Shown here piece after piece: positions 40,755 through 52,734 of a stretch of 52,734 nucleotides of DNA. The stretch spans positions 1 through 52,734 of the forward strand of contig JAPKZQ010000039.1 in NCBI GenBank assembly GCA_026393675.1, in the 5' to 3' direction. The notes beneath the pieces are model-generated. The model ran no database searches. It saw only the letters and a list, made by a program, of their open reading frames with translations, and was not told the origin of the DNA. The stretch is from Acidobacteriota bacterium (GTDB lineage: Bacteria; Acidobacteriota; Vicinamibacteria; Vicinamibacterales; JAKQTR01). Positions within the stretch are counted from its first letter, which is position 1; each line of letters begins with the position of its first letter. A program made the translations under genes and the position numbers.

Positions 40755-40803
40755 ATTGTCACTTCGGCTGGGGCCGCGCACTGACTGGGGCCGCCCACTG
40801 GAG

Positions 40804-40823
40804 GCCGGGGCTTCAGCCCCGGC
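40804..40823. repeat. REP palindrome
   Basis: GCCGGGGCT-TC-AGCCCCGGC, preceded by TGGAG and followed by ACTCAG, the same family as the cluster beside the RAYT gene (46802-46941). Confidence 0.75.
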
Positions 40824-40982
40824 ACTCAGCGAAGCAGACCCAGCCAGCCGACAAGGCGAGTGGTCGGCTTCAAGAGGTGGGGTTTGCACATCCGGCGACC
40901 GATCCCAGAGCCGAGGCCGCGCGTTCGTCGTCCGATCCTCACGTTCGTCGTTTGGTCGCACGGCAGAGGCCGCGCACTGGAG

Positions 40983-41002
40983 GCCGGGTCTTGAAACCCG
41001 GC
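40983..41002. repeat. REP palindrome
   Basis: GCCGGGT-CTTGAA-ACCCGGC preceded by CACTGGAG; second copy of the RAYT-linked REP family in this interval. Confidence 0.7.
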
Positions 41003-44706: not shown

Positions 44707-46011
44707 CTAGCCAGAGCTGCTCTGTGCCGGTGAGGCGCTTAGCACTTCCCCAAGAAACTTGGTCAGTCGCCGTTCGACTGCTTCAAGACATGGAACGAGG
44801 TCGGCAGCTACGTGTGCCGGCTGCGAATCAACCTCTACTGCGGCGACTCCGATGGCACGAAGGCGATCCTCCAGGCAAGGATGGCTGTCCGTCGGGTGTG
44901 TGACTCCGTTGTCCATCTTTGGATCCAGCTTCAACCCGACAGAGCGGGCGACGCCGTCCGCAAAGACCGCCGACAGATTTATCGGGAGGTGACCGCTTCT
45001 GGCTTGCTCTGAGAACCATGCCGTTGCCGACCGGAAGAGCGGCACGGCCGCGATTGCCTTCGTTAGCGAGGAGGCGACTGCCTGAGGAGAAGTAACCAGG
45101 GGCGCAATTGAGTCCGCTCGCAACTCCCGAGCACGGCCAATCCGGGATTCGAGCCTGCGAAAGACCGCGAGATACCGCTCCAAGACCAAGAGTGGGACCC
45201 AAAGACCGACCGACATGGCAGCCGCGGCCTCGCCATCCGCATCGGCGACTCGGCGAAGCCCGGCGATTGCTTCCGATGCGCCGCGGTAGACAGGGTAGAA
45301 GCGTCTACTGTAGAAAGTGTCAGCTCCCGTGAAATGGGACAACTCATGAACAAGGACAGCCGTCAATTCGGACACCGTCAATAGTCGCAGTAGCGGTCCA
45401 GACAAGCACAGCGTCTGCCCTCGGACATGCCCCGCGACAGTATGGACTTCTGCTTCCGTAACGAAGAACGACGTGCCAAGCTCAATCACGACGGATTCGG
45501 GTTGGCGGCATTCCAACCGTGCTCCAATCTGTCCTAGCAGACGAAAGAGGTCCGGCGCATCTTGTTGGCATATGGGTAGAGCCAGTGTGTGCACTCGGAT
45601 CCGCCGCACGGACAAGAACCCGGCTCTTACTATCTGCCACAATCCAATGGCGCACCCAACCATGATCAACACGTATCCCAGCACTCCTTTCATCGGGATC
45701 CTTACCCTCGCGCCCGGTGTCGCCAGGTACTCAAACAACGAACCAAGCAGCCAACTCAACCCTCCAGCAACGGCGAGTATTAGACCTGCACAGAGCGCCA
45801 GGGCCAAGTACATTCCCGGTACGAAGAAGAGGGCGAGGGCCAATCTCCCACGATGATCCGCCATGACCCGCCCAGCAAGCGCAGCATTCTGGGCTGTCCC
45901 AGTACCCACCGCCATTTTGGCGATCTGCTGAATCGTCGATGCCGCTGTTGGATCCGGCCGCCGCTTCCAAGCCGATTTGATGCTCTTAAAGATGTCGAGA
46001 GAGCTTGGCAT
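44707..46011 (-). CDS. M48-type membrane metalloprotease
   Basis: 434 residues from ATG 46011 (AAGGAG just upstream). Two membrane segments (about 65-110 and 130-155), then the HExxH protease signature LTAVLVHELSHFTGADTFYS (His at about 222), fitting M48 (HtpX/Ste24-like) enzymes. The third ligand is probably Glu in RIGRARELRADSIAP. Upstream of the DnaK-like pseudogene on the same strand (62-base gap), so the two may once have formed a stress-response unit. Substrate unknown. Confidence 0.7.
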   Translation of the reverse strand: MPSSLDIFKSIKSAWKRRPDPTAASTIQQIAKMAVGTGTAQNAALAGRVMADHRGRLALALFFVPGMYLALALCAGLILAVAGGLSWLLGSLFEYLATPGARVRIPMKGVLGYVLIMVGCAIGLWQIVRAGFLSVRRIRVHTLALPICQQDAPDLFRLLGQIGARLECRQPESVVIELGTSFFVTEAEVHTVAGHVRGQTLCLSGPLLRLLTVSELTAVLVHELSHFTGADTFYSRRFYPVYRGASEAIAGLRRVADADGEAAAAMSVGLWVPLLVLERYLAVFRRLESRIGRARELRADSIAPLVTSPQAVASSLTKAIAAVPLFRSATAWFSEQARSGHLPINLSAVFADGVARSVGLKLDPKMDNGVTHPTDSHPCLEDRLRAIGVAAVEVDSQPAHVAADLVPCLEAVERRLTKFLGEVLSASPAQSSSG

Positions 46012-46320
46012 GCACTCCTTGCCGCTCGGGCATCTGGCGTTGGCCAACCGCCCGAGCACCGGACTTCGAATGCTAGCCACGCTCCGTTGGAACTTGCAAG
46101 GGAATCCGGTAAGCGCCTCCCCAAGGTCGCTGCGTGACGTGCTTCCCCCGCCTTGTTGCCGGCCCCGCCCAGACTCGAGGAGGTGCTGGCGGCGCTAGGC
46201 ACCGCAGGCGGCCGAAGCCGCCGGTTGAGAGTCCTTGGCAGGAACACCGTGCCAACGGCTGCCACGCATCTAGCAAGACCGCTTCAACACGGCTCGGACC
46301 TTGCACTCGTGTTGGCTCTG
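46012..46320. other. Intergenic region between M48 gene and RAYT
   Basis: Divergent upstream regions of the protease gene and the transposase gene; no small gene or known RNA recognised. Confidence 0.45.
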
Positions 46321-46812
46321 ATGAGCCGTCCCCATCGCCTCGATCCAAGTGAGTATGTCGGCATCCGTCAGTACTTCCTGACCATTTGCACGCACCAGCG
46401 CAATTGCGAGTTCGGCGATGCGGACACGATCGCGCTGGTCTGGGCGCAATTTCTGCGCGTCTCGGTGGCCGCACAGTTCGCAATTCTTGCTTACTGCTTC
46501 ATGCCCGACCACCTGCACGCCATTGTCACGGGTCAGTCGGAGAACGCCGACTTCCGAGGCTTCGTGCGTCGCGCCAAACAGCGGTCGGGTTTTGCGTTCG
46601 CGCAGGTTGCGGGGCGCCGATTGTGGCAGGAGAGTTACTTCGAGCGGTTGGTGCGTAGCGACGAGCGCGTCGCAGAACTCATCAAGTACATCATCGAAAA
46701 CCCTGTTCGGGCAGGGTTGGTGGAAAGGTTGACCGAGTATCCGCACTGGGGATCTCAGATCTATTCGCGCGAAGAGCTCCTGGAATTCGTTGCGCGTGAA
46801 TGCCGGGTCTGA
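46321..46812 (+). CDS. REP-associated tyrosine transposase (RAYT)
   Basis: 163 residues from ATG 46321 (an upstream in-frame extension is not family-like). Y1/IS200-like fold: YFLTICTHQRN, the HUH motif FMPDHLHAIV, and the catalytic Tyr in LWQESYFERLVRSDE; ENPVRAGLVERLTEYPHWGS is a RAYT hallmark. RAYTs mobilise REP palindromes and are usually single-copy genes flanked by them. Here the first REP palindrome overlaps the stop codon region. Confidence 0.9.
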   Translation: MSRPHRLDPSEYVGIRQYFLTICTHQRNCEFGDADTIALVWAQFLRVSVAAQFAILAYCFMPDHLHAIVTGQSENADFRGFVRRAKQRSGFAFAQVAGRRLWQESYFERLVRSDERVAELIKYIIENPVRAGLVERLTEYPHWGSQIYSREELLEFVARECRV

Positions 46813-46941
46813 AGACCCGGCCTCCAGCTTGAATACCCACTCCTCCAGTGTGAAGACCCGGTCTCCAGCTTGAGTACCCCCTCAGACAGTGTGAAGACCC
46901 GCCCTCCAGCTTGGACAGAATGCCGGGTCTTCAGCCCCGGC
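46802..46941. repeat. REP cluster beside RAYT: two palindromes and three 41-bp direct repeats
   Basis: Palindrome 1: GCCGGGTCT-GA-AGACCCGGC (46802-46821). Three tandem copies starting TGAAGACCCG at 46810, 46851 and 46892 (41-base spacing) each contain CTCCAGCTTG. The last palindrome is GCCGGGTCTTCAGCCCCGGC (46922-46941). The cluster begins inside the RAYT coding end and stops 18 bases before the trp promoter. Confidence 0.85.
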
Positions 46942-46958
46942 ACTCAGGTGCACGGCGT

Positions 46959-46987
46959 TTGACAGAGTGGAGGCCCTCTGGTAGCCT
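46959..46987 (+). promoter_or_regulatory. Promoter of the tryptophan operon
   Basis: TTGACA (46959-46964), 17-base spacer, TAGCCT (46982-46987). The start would fall about 46994, within a few bases of the leader-peptide ATG. Confidence 0.55.
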
Positions 46988-46998
46988 CTTCGCAGGAA

Positions 46999-47067
46999 AT
47001 GACGAAATCTCTCAGCGGCATCACCGTGTATCCGACTTGGTGGTGGTGGTGTGTCCAGACCAGCTGA
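46999..47067 (+). CDS. trpL: trp operon leader peptide
   Basis: 22 codons, starting MTKSLSG and containing four consecutive Trp codons (47038-47049) followed by CVQTS and TGA. With the hairpins downstream this is a classic attenuation leader. AGGA is too close to the ATG for a normal ribosome site; with the predicted transcript start so near, initiation may be almost leaderless. Confidence 0.85.
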   Translation: MTKSLSGITVYPTWWWWCVQTS

Positions 47068-47144
47068 GAGGCTTGATTCCTAAGATCGACGACGCGAGAT
47101 AGACCACAAAGCCTTTTCAGCCAACCGGCTGGAGAGGCTTTTTT
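47009..47144 (+). promoter_or_regulatory. Tryptophan attenuator
   Basis: Segment 1 CTCTCAGC (47009-47016) pairs with segment 2 GCTGAGAG (47063-47070). Segment 2, as GCTGAGAGGCTT (47063-47074), also pairs with segment 3 AAGCCTTTTCAGC (47109-47121) as antiterminator with one bulge. Segment 3 pairs with segment 4 in the terminator. A ribosome stalled at the Trp codons sits between segments 1 and 2 and so favours 2:3; one that reaches the stop covers segment 2 and allows the terminator. Confidence 0.82.
47108..47144 (+). terminator. Attenuator terminator
   Basis: Stem AAAGCCT/AGGCTTT continued by CAGCC/GGCTG with loop AACC, then TTTTTT (47139-47144). Ends nine bases before the aroDE start. Confidence 0.85.
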
Positions 47145-47152
47145 CGTTTGTG

Positions 47153-48616
47153 ATGTCCATGGCAGAAGGCCCAGGAATCTGCGCCACGGTGACGGCCCGC
47201 ACGATGGCCGACCTGATTCGCGTCCGCGACGGGGTTGCGGGTGCCGACCTGGTCGAGATGCGTCTCGACACCGTGCCGGATCCGGATGTTGATGCCGCGC
47301 TCAAGGGCCGCCGTCTCCCGGTCGTCGTCACGTGCCGGTGGACCGCCGAAGGTGGCCACTTCACAGGGACTGAACAGGAGCGGCGCGCGCTGCTCCTGCG
47401 GGCGCTCGGTGCGGGTGCCGAGTTCGTCGACATCGAGTGGCGGGCAGGACTTGATGATGTGATCCGGTCGCGCCACGGACGCAACGTCGTGCTGTCGTAC
47501 CACGACTTCGGGGGCGTGCCCGCCGATCTGTCCTCGCGGGTGGACGCGATGCTGGCCACCGGCGCCGAGGTCGTGAAAGTGGCCGTCATGGCATCGCGGC
47601 TGAGCGACTGCCTGCCATTGCTGCAACTGGGTCGGAAGCATCGAGGCCGGCGCATCGTACTTCTGGCGATGGGCGAGGCCGGTCTTGTGACGCGCGTGTT
47701 CGCGGCGCGGTTTGGATCGTGCTGGACCTACGCCGGCGAAGGCGTGGCGCCTGGCCAGATGAGCACAGCGCAGCTCATCGGCGAGCTGGCGTTCCGACGG
47801 ATCGGTGCAGACACTCGCGTGTATGGACTGTTCGGTCGCGGGATCTCGCATTCGCCATCGCCCGCGATGCACAACGCCGGATTCGCCGAAGTAGGCGTCG
47901 ATGCCGCCTACGTGCCGTTGCCGGCCGCAGATGCTGATGATGCGATGACGTTTGCTCGCGGATTCGATCTGGCTGGCGCCAGCGTGACGATACCATTCAA
48001 GGTCGACCTCTTCGGTTGTCTCGATGATGTCGATCCCGGAGCGAAAGCCCTCGGCGCCATCAACACCCTTGCGCACGCCAACGGCCGGTGGTCGGGCACC
48101 AACACCGATGGACAGGGATTTGTTGCAGGCCTGCGCATTGATGTGCCACGCGGAACCCGGGTTGCGATCCTGGGGACAGGCGGCGCCGCGCGCGCGGTGG
48201 CAACGGCCCTCCGGGACGCCGGCGCGAATGTGACGGTGTTCGGGCGCTCGGCCGATACAGCCAGGGATGTGGCGACCGCTCTCGGCGTGTCGGGCGCGGC
48301 GCGTCCGGTGCCGCTGTCGAGCTGGGACCTGCTCGTCAACGCGACGCCGGTCGGGACGTATCCCGACGTGGAGCGGACCTCGTTTCCCGAAGGTGTGTTC
48401 GATGGCGGAACCGTCTACGACCTGGTCTATCACCCAGAGAAGACGCGACTCCTTCGCGACGCCGAACTGGCAGGATGCCGGACGATCGGCGGCCTCACCA
48501 TGTTGATTGAACAAGCCCGGCTCCAGCAGGCGTGGTGGACGGGCCGTACGCCGAGTGTCGCCGCGCTCCATGCCGCCGCGGTCCGGACGCTCGCAACCCG
48601 AACGGAACAGTCATGA
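47153..48616 (+). CDS. aroDE: Bifunctional 3-dehydroquinate dehydratase (type I) / shikimate dehydrogenase
   Basis: About 487 residues. N-domain (about 1-215) is type I dehydroquinase: VEMRLDTVPDPDV, VVVTCRWTAEGG, VVLSYHDFGGVP, VVKVAVMAS with Schiff-base Lys, and ARFGSCWTYAG. C-domain (about 220-485) is shikimate dehydrogenase: GLFGRGISHSPSPAMHNAGF, GASVTIPFKVDLF, NTDGQGFVAGL, NADP-binding GTGGAARAVATAL, and NATPVGTYPDV. The domain order is AroD-AroE, like plant-type fusions. Start codon could be ATG 47153 or 47159. First structural gene after the trp attenuator, so supply of shikimate is tied to tryptophan level. Confidence 0.92.
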   Translation: MSMAEGPGICATVTARTMADLIRVRDGVAGADLVEMRLDTVPDPDVDAALKGRRLPVVVTCRWTAEGGHFTGTEQERRALLLRALGAGAEFVDIEWRAGLDDVIRSRHGRNVVLSYHDFGGVPADLSSRVDAMLATGAEVVKVAVMASRLSDCLPLLQLGRKHRGRRIVLLAMGEAGLVTRVFAARFGSCWTYAGEGVAPGQMSTAQLIGELAFRRIGADTRVYGLFGRGISHSPSPAMHNAGFAEVGVDAAYVPLPAADADDAMTFARGFDLAGASVTIPFKVDLFGCLDDVDPGAKALGAINTLAHANGRWSGTNTDGQGFVAGLRIDVPRGTRVAILGTGGAARAVATALRDAGANVTVFGRSADTARDVATALGVSGAARPVPLSSWDLLVNATPVGTYPDVERTSFPEGVFDGGTVYDLVYHPEKTRLLRDAELAGCRTIGGLTMLIEQARLQQAWWTGRTPSVAALHAAAVRTLATRTEQS

Positions 48617-50088
48617 ACCTCACGACCTTTGAGCAGTTTGTCGAATGGGCCAAGCAGGGAACGTTTGTGCCGGTGTGCAAGGAGATCATGGCCGATCTGC
48701 TGACGCCGGTGTCGGCGTTCCTGAAGATCGCGGAGCACTCCGACTACGCGTACCTGCTGGAAAGCGTGGAAGGCGGCGAGCAGGTTGCCCGCTACTCGTT
48801 TCTCGGCAAGGATCCGTTCCTGATCCTCCGCGCCGTCGACGGCGTCGTCACCCTCGAGCGCAGTGGCACCACGACGATCAGCGAGGAGGGCTTTGTCCCC
48901 ACGTTGCGACGGGTGATGGCCGAGTTCCGCTCGCCCTCCGTGCCCGGCCTGCCGCGGTTCACGGGTGGAGCCGTCGGGTTCATGGGGTACGACGCGGTCT
49001 CCTGGTTCGAGCCGGTCATGCTGCAGCCGGTGTCGGAGGCCGATCCGGTCATCGATCAGGCCGGCTTCATGTTGTTTGACACGGTGCTCGCCTTCGACCA
49101 TGTGCAGCACCGCATCCTGATCATCGCGAATGCCCGGATCTCCGCCGATGATGACCTGCACGCGCTCTACCAGTTCGCGTGCGCGAAGATCGAGTTTCTC
49201 GAGCGCGAGTTGGAGCGCAACCTGTCGCAGGGAGAACGTCAGACGGCCGCGCCAATCGATATGCCGCCAAACATGACGCGTGAGCAATTCGAACAGCACG
49301 TGCGCTCGGCCAAGGAGTTGATCGCGGCGGGGGACATCTACCAGGTGGTCCTGTCGCAGCGCTTCGAGGCGGACCTCGATGCCGATCCCTTCGCCGTCTA
49401 CCGGGCCCTGCGTCACGTAAATCCGTCGCCATACATGTTCTTCGTGAAGATGGCTGACGTGTCGATGGTCGGGGCATCGCCCGAGATGCTCGTGCGCGTG
49501 GAAGGCCGGCGGGTGGAGACCCATCCGATTGCCGGGACGCGCCCGCGAGGGCCGACCGCCGAGGAGGATCAGCTCCTGGCAGAGGAACTGAAGGCCAGCG
49601 AGAAGGAGCGGGCCGAGCACGTCATGCTGGTCGATCTCGGCCGCAACGATATCGGGCGGGTGTGCGAGTACGGGTCGGTGCGCGTGTCCCAGTTCATGGC
49701 GCTCGAACGCTATTCGCACGTCATGCACCTGGTCTCGATTGTCGAGGGCAAGCTCGCCGAGGATCGCGATCGGTTGGACGCGCTGGTCTCCTGCTTCCCG
49801 GCGGGGACGGTATCTGGCGCGCCAAAGGTCCGTGCGATGGAGATTATTGCGAGCCTCGAGCCATCCCGTCGCGGTGCCTATGGCGGCGCGGTGGGATACC
49901 TCGACTTTGCGGGCAACCTGGATTTCTGCATCACGATTCGCACCGTCGTCATCGTGGGCCGCCGGGCCCTGGTGCAGGCTGGGGCGGGCATTGTCGCCGA
50001 CTCGGACCCGACGGCGGAATTTGAAGAGACGCGCGACAAGGCGCGAGCGATGTTTCGCGCGCTGGATCTGGCTCAGCAGGGGTTGTAG
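48613..50088 (+). CDS. trpE: Anthranilate synthase component I
   Basis: 491 residues from ATG 48613 (ATGA overlap with aroDE). The N-terminal feedback region has AYLLESVEGGEQVARYSFLG (LLES motif for tryptophan inhibition). The chorismate-binding domain has AGDIYQVVLSQRFE, VGASPEMLVRVEGRRVETHPIAGTRPRG, HVMLVDLGRNDIGR and FPAGTVSGAPKVRAMEII. Works with TrpG. Confidence 0.95.
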   Translation: MNLTTFEQFVEWAKQGTFVPVCKEIMADLLTPVSAFLKIAEHSDYAYLLESVEGGEQVARYSFLGKDPFLILRAVDGVVTLERSGTTTISEEGFVPTLRRVMAEFRSPSVPGLPRFTGGAVGFMGYDAVSWFEPVMLQPVSEADPVIDQAGFMLFDTVLAFDHVQHRILIIANARISADDDLHALYQFACAKIEFLERELERNLSQGERQTAAPIDMPPNMTREQFEQHVRSAKELIAAGDIYQVVLSQRFEADLDADPFAVYRALRHVNPSPYMFFVKMADVSMVGASPEMLVRVEGRRVETHPIAGTRPRGPTAEEDQLLAEELKASEKERAEHVMLVDLGRNDIGRVCEYGSVRVSQFMALERYSHVMHLVSIVEGKLAEDRDRLDALVSCFPAGTVSGAPKVRAMEIIASLEPSRRGAYGGAVGYLDFAGNLDFCITIRTVVIVGRRALVQAGAGIVADSDPTAEFEETRDKARAMFRALDLAQQGL

Positions 50089-50151: not shown

Positions 50152-50721
50152 GTGTTGTTGATCATCGACAACTTTGATTCGTTCACCTACAACCTCGTCC
50201 AGTATTTTGGCGAGCTTGGGGCGACGCCCGTCGTGTTTCGCAGCAACGCGATCACGATCCCGGAGATCGACGCGTTGCGGCCGGAGCGCATCGTGATCTC
50301 GCCCGGACCCGGCCGGCCCGAGGATGCCGGTGTGTCGGAGGACGTGATCCGGGCCTTCGCTGGCAAGTTGCCGATTCTCGGCGTCTGTCTCGGCCATCAG
50401 GCGATCGGGCACGTGTTTGGGGGGCGCGTCGTGCGCGCGCCGCGGCCGAGGCACGGCAAGGTGTCGTCGATCGAGCACGATGGCAAGGGCCTCTTCCAGG
50501 GATTGCGGGGCGCGTTTGACGCCGGTCGTTATCACTCGCTGGCGGTAGCCGAGGACGGTTGGCCGGCAGACCTCGAAGTGACCGCGCGCGCCGCCGGCGA
50601 TGGCGTCGTGATGGCGTTGCGGCACAGGACATGGCAGGTACACGGCGTCCAGTTTCATCCGGAGTCGGTGCTGACCCCCGAAGGCAGGCACCTGCTTCGC
50701 AATTTCCTCAATCTCAAGTAG
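50152..50721 (+). CDS. trpG: Anthranilate synthase component II (glutamine amidotransferase)
   Basis: 189 residues from GTG 50152 (GAGAGGGG upstream). DNFDSFTYNLVQYF, oxyanion loop SPGPGRPEDAG, catalytic Cys in LGVCLGHQAIG and His-Glu in GVQFHPESVLTPEG. Could also serve para-aminobenzoate synthase (PabA), as in many single-copy species. Confidence 0.95.
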   Translation: MLLIIDNFDSFTYNLVQYFGELGATPVVFRSNAITIPEIDALRPERIVISPGPGRPEDAGVSEDVIRAFAGKLPILGVCLGHQAIGHVFGGRVVRAPRPRHGKVSSIEHDGKGLFQGLRGAFDAGRYHSLAVAEDGWPADLEVTARAAGDGVVMALRHRTWQVHGVQFHPESVLTPEGRHLLRNFLNLK

Positions 50722-50735
50722 CGGAGGCGCATGCC

Positions 50736-51776
50736 ATGCTGGGCGATCTGCTCCAGACCGTGATGCGGCGGCAGGATCTGACCGCTGATGAAGCCAGGGC
50801 CGCGATGGATGCCATCATCGACGGCCACGCGCGCGGCGCCCAGGTGGCAGGTCTGCTCGTGGGCCTGGCCATGAAGGGCGAACGCCCGGACGAGATCGTC
50901 GGGTTCGCGCGCAGTATGCGGGCACGGGCGGTCAGCATCCGCTCCCCGGAGGGTGGCACGGTCGACCTGTGCGGCACCGGCGGAGACGGGGCCGGCACGT
51001 TCAACATCTCCTCTGTCGCCGCCATTGTCGTGGCCGCCTGCGGCGTCACCGTGGCGAAGCACGGCAATCGGTCGGTCTCGAGCCGGTGCGGCAGCGCGGA
51101 CGTGTTCGAGGCCCTGGGCGTGAACGTCGCGGCGCCGCCTCCGGTCGTCGAAACGTGCCTTGCCGAGACCGGCATGGCGTTTCTCTTCGCCCCGGTGTTC
51201 CATCCCTCCATGCGAAACGTCGCCGAGGTGAGAAGGGAACTGGGCGTGAGAACCGCGTTCAACCTGCTTGGCCCGCTGACCAACCCGACCCAGCCCAGAC
51301 GGCAGCTCATCGGCGTGCCGAGGCCCGAACTCACCGAGTTGATTGCGCGGTCGCTCTCGCTGCTCGGTTCCGAGCGTGCGTGGGTGGTGCATGGTGCCGA
51401 CGGGCTCGATGAGATCTCGACCACCGGCTACACGAAGGTGTCCGAGTCGCGTGGCCGCACGGTCAACACTTTCTATCTGCATCCGGGCGACGTCGGCTTG
51501 CCGAAAGCCACGCCCGCATCACTCGCCGGAGGCGACGCGGCCACTAACGCGGAGATTGCGCGAGACATCCTTCGGGGCACCAGAGGGCCTGCGCGCGACA
51601 TCGTGCTCCTGAACGCCGGGGCCGTGCTGCTGCTGGCAGGCAAGGCGGACACGCTTCGCGACGGCATCGCACGGGCAGGAGAAGCGATCGACTCCGGCGC
51701 CGGACGGGCCGTGCTCGATCGTCTCGTATCTGCGTCTCACAACGTGGGCGGCACGTCTGTGAAAGGCGAGGCATAA
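50736..51776 (+). CDS. trpD: Anthranilate phosphoribosyltransferase
   Basis: 346 residues from ATG 50736 (GGAGG eight bases upstream); 14 bases after trpG. PRPP/anthranilate motifs: LCGTGGDGAGTFNISS, KHGNRSVSSRCGSADVFEALG, FAPVFHPSMRNVAEVRRELGVRT, FNLLGPLTNP, VVHGADGLDEIS. Confidence 0.95.
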   Translation: MLGDLLQTVMRRQDLTADEARAAMDAIIDGHARGAQVAGLLVGLAMKGERPDEIVGFARSMRARAVSIRSPEGGTVDLCGTGGDGAGTFNISSVAAIVVAACGVTVAKHGNRSVSSRCGSADVFEALGVNVAAPPPVVETCLAETGMAFLFAPVFHPSMRNVAEVRRELGVRTAFNLLGPLTNPTQPRRQLIGVPRPELTELIARSLSLLGSERAWVVHGADGLDEISTTGYTKVSESRGRTVNTFYLHPGDVGLPKATPASLAGGDAATNAEIARDILRGTRGPARDIVLLNAGAVLLLAGKADTLRDGIARAGEAIDSGAGRAVLDRLVSASHNVGGTSVKGEA

Positions 51777-51779
51777 CCA

Positions 51780-52734
51780 GTGGGGCAACCGGCCGGCGCG
51801 TCCTCCGCGAATCTGTTGGATGCGATCGTGGCGGCGTCGCGACGCATTGTCGCGACGCGGCGCGCCAGCGAGTCGGCGACTGCACTGGCGAGTCGCGCGG
51901 CCCAACGTGAGCCACGGGGCGTAGCGTTTCGGGAAGCCGTGGCGCGCACGGGACGGATCAACGTGATTGCGGAGTGCAAGCGCCGGTCACCGGCACGTGG
52001 CGTGTTGCGGAGGGACTACAAACCTGGCGACATTGCACGGGCGTACGAGGAGGGCGGCGCGTCGGCGGTATCCGTCTTGACCGAGCCCACCTTTTTCGAT
52101 GGGTCTCTGACGCATCTGGAGGAGGTGCGCGCCGCGGTCGCACTCCCAATCCTCCGCAAGGATTTCATCATCGACGAGTACCAGTTGCTGGAGGCGAGAG
52201 CCGCCGGCGCCGACGCGGTCTTGCTGATTGTCGCGGCGTGCGTGCCCTCCGAGCTGACCGCATTGGTCGAAGCCGCCCGGACGATGGGGCTGGCTGCACT
52301 GGTCGAGGCCCACACAGCCGACGAGATCCGCCAGGGCATCGATGCGGGCGCGACCATCATCGGCGTCAATAGCCGAAACCTGAATACGCTGGCCGTGGAT
52401 CTCGGAGCCTGCGACGCGTTGGTCGGCGAGATTCCGCCCGGGTGTGTCGCCGTCGCCGAGAGCGGCATCCGATCACTCGAGGATGTGCGTCATCTCCACG
52501 CGATTGGCTACCAGGCCGTGCTGATTGGCGAGTGGCTGATGTCGGCGGGCGATCCCTGTTCGACGCTCCAAACGGTTGTTGGGATGGCTGGCGCGGCCAC
52601 GCTGGAGCGTGGCGATCCGTGCGCCTGTAAGTGTGCCATGACCCGAGAGGTGCAAGTCCTCTCCAGGCAAACGCTCTCCGGCCTGAAGCCGACGATTACT
52701 GCGCCGCCGCGAGGCGGGGTGGGGAGCTATCGGA
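51780..52734 (+). CDS. trpC: Indole-3-glycerol phosphate synthase, 3' end interrupted
   Basis: Starts GTG 51780, four bases after trpD. IGPS motifs: IAEFKxxSP-type VIAECKRRSPARG, LTEPTFFDGSLTHL, PILRKDFIIDEYQ, VEAHTADEI, IIGVNSRNLNTL, VAVAESGIRSLEDV, VLIGEWLMSAGDP. The catalytic domain is complete by about residue 265. No stop follows: the frame continues to the window end, but after about 52618 the codons no longer look like TrpC or TrpF and the sequence resembles the 5' end of a group II intron. The gene product end is therefore uncertain. Confidence 0.85.
   Translation, partial: MGQPAGASSANLLDAIVAASRRIVATRRASESATALASRAAQREPRGVAFREAVARTGRINVIAECKRRSPARGVLRRDYKPGDIARAYEEGGASAVSVLTEPTFFDGSLTHLEEVRAAVALPILRKDFIIDEYQLLEARAAGADAVLLIVAACVPSELTALVEAARTMGLAALVEAHTADEIRQGIDAGATIIGVNSRNLNTLAVDLGACDALVGEIPPGCVAVAESGIRSLEDVRHLHAIGYQAVLIGEWLMSAGDPCSTLQTVVGMAGAATLERGDPCACKCAMTREVQVLSRQTLSGLKPTITAPPRGGVGSYR
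52619..52734 (+). mobile_element. Candidate 5' end of a group II (IIC-like) intron, runs off window
   Basis: Begins GTGCGCC, the group II 5' signature, followed by GAGAGG-TGCAAGT-CCTCTC (a conserved-looking domain I hairpin) and CCGCC-GCGA-GGCGG with a GNRA loop. Five bases upstream of the boundary is the stem GCCACGCT/AGCGTGGC (52596-52613), the stem-loop target that class C introns prefer. The intron body and any reverse transcriptase lie beyond the window, so this is provisional. Confidence 0.5.

Follow-up and report, generated by a model that had tools for sequence, protein, structure and literature searches.

The locus examined here raises the question of why aroDE, a gene of the common shikimate pathway, should stand first in an operon under tryptophan attenuation, a placement that the original prediction considered unusual. 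We have analyzed the window, i.e., the whole 52,734-nucleotide stretch of contig JAPKZQ010000039.1 from an Acidobacteriota bacterium of the order Vicinamibacterales, together with the corresponding loci of its relatives. In our judgment it is very likely that aroDE is preceded by a classical trp-type ribosome-mediated transcription attenuator, Trp-only in the window and probably responsive to both Trp and Tyr across the order, which controls a supraoperon for shikimate entry, Trp and Tyr. Ribosome stalling, in vivo termination with its relief, and the response to Tyr are what we infer from the nucleotide sequence.

The leader region of aroDE

The entire element, from promoter through terminator, resides at 46959-47147 of the window, directly 5' of aroDE and on the + strand, as are the genes that follow. 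Its promoter (46959-46987) comprises TTGACA at 46959-46964, a 17-nt spacer and TAGCCT at 46982-46987; 11 nt past the -10 box lies the ATG (46999) of a 22-codon leader peptide ORF (46999-47067; MTKSLSGITVYPTWWWWCVQTS*) that ends with TGA at 47065-47067. Because the ORF begins so close to the -10 box, the leader transcript of the window is probably near-leaderless. The predicted run of four successive Trp codons is found within this ORF (TGG x4 at 47038-47049), with the last one beginning 16 nt upstream of segment 2.

All three competing pairings (1:2, 2:3 and 3:4) put forward in the original prediction are present in the window. Segment 2 (GCTGAGAGGCTT; 47063-47074), which contains the leader stop codon, can pair with segment 1 (47008-47016), a segment confined to the window's genus, or with segment 3 (47109-47121), which serves both as the 3' arm of the antiterminator and as the 5' arm of the terminator, while segment 4 (47127-47141) provides the terminator 3' arm. 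As judged by duplex energies, helix 1:2 (47008-47016 with 47062-47072) amounts to -14.2 kcal/mol, helix 2:3 (47063-47074 with 47109-47121) to -15.3 kcal/mol and helix 3:4 (47108-47122 with 47127-47141) to -23.7 kcal/mol. The 3:4 hairpin (15 pairs, 47108-47141), which together with its U-run makes up an intrinsic terminator at 47108-47144, agrees with the strong terminator that had been claimed. The RNA folded only up to segment 3 adopts the antiterminator (-19.2) and, when extended through segment 4, the terminator, and the leader fold was more stable than 200 of 200 dinucleotide shuffles (z = -3.44).

A second promoter between terminator and aroDE, which had been named as an observation that would speak against the attenuator, was discarded, as a consensus scan of 46000-48000 yielded no promoter-like site, the leader promoter itself falling below the scan cut-off and being missed as well. 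The segment upstream of the attenuator (46153-46945) harbors a Y1 (RAYT-like) transposase gene and then 3-4 REP-like repeats (GAAGACCCGGCCTCCAG) that extend up to the attenuator promoter, with more copies of this repeat at 40798-40993.

The terminator is separated by 8-17 nt from the start codon of aroDE (47150, 47153 or 47159), and GGAGAGG (47131-47137), embedded in segment 4, is the sole SD-like sequence 5' of aroDE and the presumptive SD of this gene. If so, the 3:4 hairpin would also occlude the SD as a second layer of control, albeit an uncertain one in view of the long spacing. One could go further and argue that control is mainly translational, with the hairpin affecting initiation as much as termination; in keeping with this, the window shows no further SD-like sequence after the hairpin and before aroDE begins, and in many relatives no more than 15 nt separate the end of the hairpin from the start. 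However, 12-15 nt is a long spacing for an SD, the hairpin is situated 50-190 nt from the gene in several relatives, and the presence of a strong hairpin with a U-run at essentially all loci suits an intrinsic terminator, so that we regard mainly translational control as improbable.

The aromatic supraoperon

The aroDE gene (47150-48616, with start codon at 47150, 47153 or 47159) encodes a type I 3-dehydroquinase fused to shikimate dehydrogenase and is followed by trpE (48613-50088; anthranilate synthase component I), trpG (50152-50721; glutamine amidotransferase), trpD (50736-51776; anthranilate phosphoribosyltransferase) and trpC (51780-52734; indole-3-glycerol phosphate synthase). While the aroDE-trpEGDC genes of the original prediction are all there, this is only part of the operon, which is cut within trpC by the contig end. 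The end of another contig of the same genome (C42) carries trpF, trpB, trpA, DAHP synthase and prephenate dehydrogenase (tyrA, with domains PDH_N and PDH_C) in that order and on one strand, and a sister species (G004) displays the contiguous order aroDE-trpE-G-D-C-F-B-A-aroF-tyrA, which strongly suggests that the window's contig (C39) and C42 join.

Nearly every locus inspected across Vicinamibacterales displays the same gene order, with an AroQ-type chorismate mutase (CM_2 domain in 4 of 4 tested) between trpA and aroF at many loci outside the window's family, making the order-wide unit aroDE-trpEGDCFBA-(chorismate mutase)-aroF (DAHP synthase)-tyrA. A hand count from a whole-genome search gave about 90 genomes in which TyrA is encoded downstream of aroDE, on its contig and at a distance of less than 12 kb. 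The surprise over aroDE was therefore half right: no lone common-pathway gene has been placed under Trp attenuation, since the unit includes DAHP synthase and tyrA as well, and the arrangement is the standard one in the order, where most relatives mix Tyr codons into their leaders. As the operon produces Tyr too, Trp control of the common-pathway gene aroDE is sensible.

Whether the genome carries other aroD or aroE genes had also been posed as a check. A second housekeeping copy was rejected: aroDE is the only DHquinase_I in the window's genome, no DHquinase_II was detected there, and the one other shikimate-dehydrogenase domain belongs to a 729-residue fusion with a Gfo/Idh-like oxidoreductase. 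Given that this fusion is located beside a CMP-sugar-synthase-like gene, aroDE is very probably the sole housekeeping aroD and aroE of this genome. The fusion, the CMP-sugar-synthase-like gene and a NeuB/DAHP-synthase-like gene follow one another at G000:C3 181935-188500 (L007, L299), an unusual sugar or cyclitol cluster. Prephenate dehydratase (PF00800) was not found in the window's genome (G000; 98.6% complete) and is present in the sister G004; either a break between contigs or the loss of this step toward Phe may account for its absence.

Conservation across the order

A covariance search in related genomes, suggested as a check on the original prediction, bore out the core of the element. 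The covariance model found the attenuator in 146 of 162 genomes of Vicinamibacterales, an order with members among soil and water bacteria, and the element in the window scored E = 6.5e-17; aroDE itself was matched in 149 of the 162 genomes, and the best model match adjoins aroDE wherever the lists of attenuators and of aroDE genes were compared. At 110 loci we find again, in similar relative places, the leader, the promoter and the two helices 2:3 and 3:4, the latter with compensatory changes; nearly all of these loci have Trp clusters in the leader, and each of the 15 families of the order has either a Trp-rich leader with a terminator 5' of aroDE or a covariance-model match. In an alignment of 65 leaders, helix 3:4 reaches 96.3% pairing; two-sided change affects nine of its pairs and totals 61 cells, where shuffles gave 15.8, and pairing dropped to 63% or less when the partner was slid by 1-3 columns. 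Helix 2:3 reaches 91.7% pairing and 27 such changes, compared with 8.9 for shuffles. Segment 2 of the relatives shares the core G[AG][AG]G[AG]GG, and variant families obey the same three-way segment rule (GAAGAGGC/GCCTCTTC/GAAGAGGC, GAGGGGGC/GCCCCCTC/GAGGGGGC and CACTGGAGAGG/CCTCTTCAGTG/CACTGAAGAGG).

The same does not hold for helix 1:2, which is present in the window and the sister species and is not kept outside the window's genus. In the shuffle test, 14 of 108 loci reached p <= 0.05 (median 0.40), and we have dropped 1:2 as an order-wide feature. Accordingly, of the pairings in the original prediction, 2:3 and 3:4 are conserved in the order and 1:2 is not, and the outcome in the absence of leader translation is probably species-dependent.

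A promoter of the type TTGAC-N17-19-TAnnnT precedes the leader at 96 of 110 loci. Half of the loci for which a promoter was called have their leader start at most 12 nt past the -10 box; assuming transcription to start ~7 nt past this box, the 5' UTR of these messages would be very short or absent. The leader stop codon is positioned inside segment 2 or up to ~21 nt after it at nearly all loci. The leader frame assigned automatically was wrong at L011/G060, L054, L055 and L072, leaving the result unaffected.

These data bear on the trivial possibility of an ordinary intergenic terminator next to a fortuitous Trp-rich ORF. The count of terminator-like structures in the window, taken alone, does not exceed the shuffle expectation, but chance does not account for recurrence across an order with covariation and a conserved promoter; with the element conserved to this extent, we discount it as having a negligible probability. 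Taken together, the leader, the promoter and the conserved helices 2:3 and 3:4 support well the earlier reading of the region as a Trp attenuator.

Limits of the distribution

Outside Vicinamibacterales, the covariance model gave weak matches only, and these, together with aroDE loci lacking a leader, led us to abandon the notion of a phylum-wide trait. At four loci of sister orders within the same class, aroDE has neither neighboring trp genes nor a Trp leader; elsewhere in the phylum, aroDE and trpE are adjacent at a few loci, without a Trp-rich leader; and no locus inspected beyond the order combines a Trp-rich leader and a fitting terminator 5' of aroDE. Two model matches outside the class turned out to be genuine-looking Trp leaders (WWWY and WWWC) 5' of trpB, in one case with DAHP synthase next. 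Such Trp leaders (FAASWWWYRRVSGGRVAC and ILGWWWCAGATGGREAAL) with terminators were seen before trpB at L288 (G398) and L290 (G191), of other Acidobacteriota families, with a DAHP synthase gene after this trpB in G398. At L152 (G223) of a sister order, a GCCTCTTC/GGAGAGGC terminator is found just 5' of aroDE, and the ORF nearby is His/Tyr-rich (FRHHRYHP*) and not Trp-rich.

Trp and Tyr in the control codons

The control zone of the window reads TWWWWCV, with Trp only and no Tyr, and on this ground its attenuator reads as Trp-sensing only. The clusters of the relatives, in contrast, are seldom pure Trp (WWYW, WRWYW, WWWY, WYWYW, WSYWWW and, in family f13, NWWWFFYF). Tyr occurs within the Trp cluster or up to 3 codons before it at 98 of 108 loci, and accounts for 12.3% of the residues of the clusters vs. 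1.1% in the upstream part of the leader and 1.9% in the operon proteins. Selecting leaders on Trp content alone still left Tyr in 69 of 82. At the family level, Tyr is found in most members of 10 of 14 families against an expectation of at most ~14% (binomial tail 1.3e-6, with families taken as independent).

To define the codon-position geometry, we counted distances upstream of segment 2 in 95 leaders. Trp accounts for 51-67% of the codons at 18-26 nt, 37% at 12-14 nt and 1% at 9-11 nt, and Tyr for 54% at 15-17 nt, 11% at 12-14 nt and 2% at 9-11 nt, such that aromatic codons occupy a zone 12-29 nt upstream of segment 2. A ribosome with its A site at least 12 nt upstream leaves segment 2 free, whereas one positioned closer covers it with its footprint. 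The edge for Trp at ~12 nt is thus expected if the A-site codon of a stalled ribosome must leave segment 2 free, and Tyr, sharing this edge, behaves as a control codon should.

The clustering of aromatic residues close to the C-terminus, along with recurrent tails such as EEAxALA, may also bring to mind nascent-peptide arrest in the style of TnaC or ErmCL, in which bound free Trp or another ligand, rather than uncharged tRNA, stalls the ribosome. We deem this very improbable because the sequence and length of the peptide are highly variable while the spacing from codon to segment 2 is tight; the Glu-Ala of the tail is itself accounted for by the GAGGC of segment 2 being read in frame.

Tyr is present in the zone at 67 of the 74 scored loci that have tyrA within 12 kb on the same contig; reading G060 in the conserved frame brings the number to 68. 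The genome G113 is instructive in this regard: its operon passes from trpA straight to a CoA-transferase gene, with tyrA absent, no PDH_N/TyrA-family gene was found in the genome (98% complete), and WWWWC stands in its zone in place of the WWYW of three congeners, although this concerted change in codon and tyrA is a single event and not statistics. When we tested whether Tyr codons always accompany tyrA, the rule proved not to be absolute, in that the window's family retains tyrA in the operon and yet has a Tyr-free zone; Tyr codons are hence not simply tracking tyrA. The genomes of this family contain a second PDH_N gene unlinked to the operon, a possible but uncertain cause of the missing Tyr.

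How, then, should the Tyr codons be read? We lean toward a bivalent Trp/Tyr attenuator across nearly the whole order, in which shortage of either amino acid would open the shikimate entry enzyme, aroDE, the full Trp branch and tyrA, and in which control codons would shift with the output of the operon, as with WWYW to WWWW in G113 where TyrA is missing. Such bivalent control fits an operon that also includes DAHP synthase and prephenate dehydrogenase. A more doubtful reading is that the attenuator senses Trp alone throughout the order, with Tyr (and Phe) codons serving RNA shape, spacing or the nascent peptide. Trp is, after all, the most frequent residue of the zone, the window's family does without Tyr there despite its tyrA, and the conserved peak of Tyr at a single position might conceivably reflect a role of the RNA or of the nascent peptide. 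However, two base changes are needed to get from TGG to a Tyr codon, and Tyr still exceeds the one-step neighbors Arg, Ser, Cys, Gly and Leu in the cluster; both of its codons are in use (TAT 63, TAC 40); its placement varies from leader to leader; and the edge in common with Trp as well as the loss of zone Tyr in G113 likewise argue against a role confined to structure.

Proposed mechanism

We propose that transcription would begin just 5' of the leader ORF. When charged tRNA-Trp is scarce, the translating ribosome would halt on the Trp run, its leading edge just shy of segment 2, leaving segment 2 to pair with segment 3 and allowing polymerase to continue into aroDE. With ample Trp, the ribosome would proceed to the stop codon and mask segment 2, whereupon the 3:4 terminator would form and the transcript would end before the aroDE start. 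In relatives with Tyr codons in the zone, the switch would most likely respond to either Trp or Tyr.

Leaders of pheA and significance

Attenuator-like leaders were also noted before pheA, the fused chorismate mutase-prephenate dehydratase gene. At L283:1796-1905 (G115) and L284:1538-1659 (G085), Phe-rich leaders (SFTGFFFTGRVTV and FPFACSFAGFIAGREAV) have a terminator directly 5' of pheA. At L330, L332, L336 and L349 (~30-200 nt 5' of the pheA start), and at L325 and L337, the leader peptides are Val-rich with some Phe (e.g., VVFGFVGVVVLVVRPTG*), again with mixed control codons, and have a CCATCATCC/GGATGATGG terminator. Because the next gene at these loci is ilvD-like or acetolactate-synthase-like, pheA seems to be the first gene of a branched-chain operon there. 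A second set of leaders (Phe, or Val with Phe) before pheA is thus likely in the order.

Most of the puzzle posed by aroDE disappears once the wider operon is considered, and in its place stands the testable idea of a two-amino-acid attenuator in nearly the whole order. More than 100 natural variants now provide test beds for whether leader codons encode the amino acids answered and for the position of the ribosome edge (12 nt). Our literature search found no report on mixed Trp/Tyr control codons or on trp attenuation in Acidobacteria, a weak negative given that subscription papers were largely outside the search; trp attenuation is now placed in this phylum.

Comparison with known systems

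Searches with Rfam at gathering score (including Trp_leader) gave no match in the window or in the loci of 15 relatives, nor was there any match to a T-box family among these; for the window leader, Rfam at E <= 1 gave no match of note, and no TRAP-type array of GAG/UAG repeats was visible by eye. The Vicinamibacterales element shows the sequence-level features of a trpL-type attenuator, a conserved 1:2 excepted.

Multivalent attenuators are known from enteric bacteria, where those of thr and ilvGMEDA sense Thr/Ile or Ile/Val/Leu. In common with the leaders described here, theirs combine control codons for two or more of the amino acids that the operon makes, but these amino acids are not Trp and Tyr. 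The Bacillus aro-trp supraoperon is controlled by the TRAP protein and is not known to have a Trp-codon leader. Its trp genes are embedded among aro and tyrA genes, as described by Song et al. 2005 (PMC1173090), the same embedding as in the Vicinamibacterales unit. The same paper tabulates tyrA supraoperons with predicted attenuators, e.g., aroA'-aroB'-aroQ-pheA-aroF-tyrA-trp in Desulfovibrio vulgaris, and does not mention Acidobacteria (PMC1173090). As a concept, then, attenuation of an aromatic supraoperon has a precedent, since the Desulfovibrio unit likewise combines common-pathway, Tyr-branch and Trp genes behind one predicted attenuator; the latter, however, is a database prediction with a different gene order, and the passages on it that we consulted contain no codon analysis (PMC1173090).

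Trp attenuation is also shared with trpL-trpE(G) of Sinorhizobium meliloti, whose trpL transcript starts at the trpL start codon (PMC7298713), and the leaders of Vicinamibacterales are likely near-leaderless; in S. meliloti, a 14-residue leader peptide is made and the attenuator governs trpE(G) alone, unlike the supraoperon described here (PMC7298713). In design, the element resembles E. coli trpL, the Rfam Trp_leader and the trp leaders of Corynebacterium and Streptomyces (PMC1262725): each has a brief leader ORF in which Trp codons stand in tandem, a 2:3 antiterminator as the alternative to a 3:4 terminator, a U-run and trp genes downstream. Compared with the E. coli trpL type, the Vicinamibacterales attenuator differs in that aroDE is the first gene, the unit reaches as far as DAHP synthase and tyrA, the leaders mix codons for Tyr with those for Trp, and helix 1:2 is not conserved.
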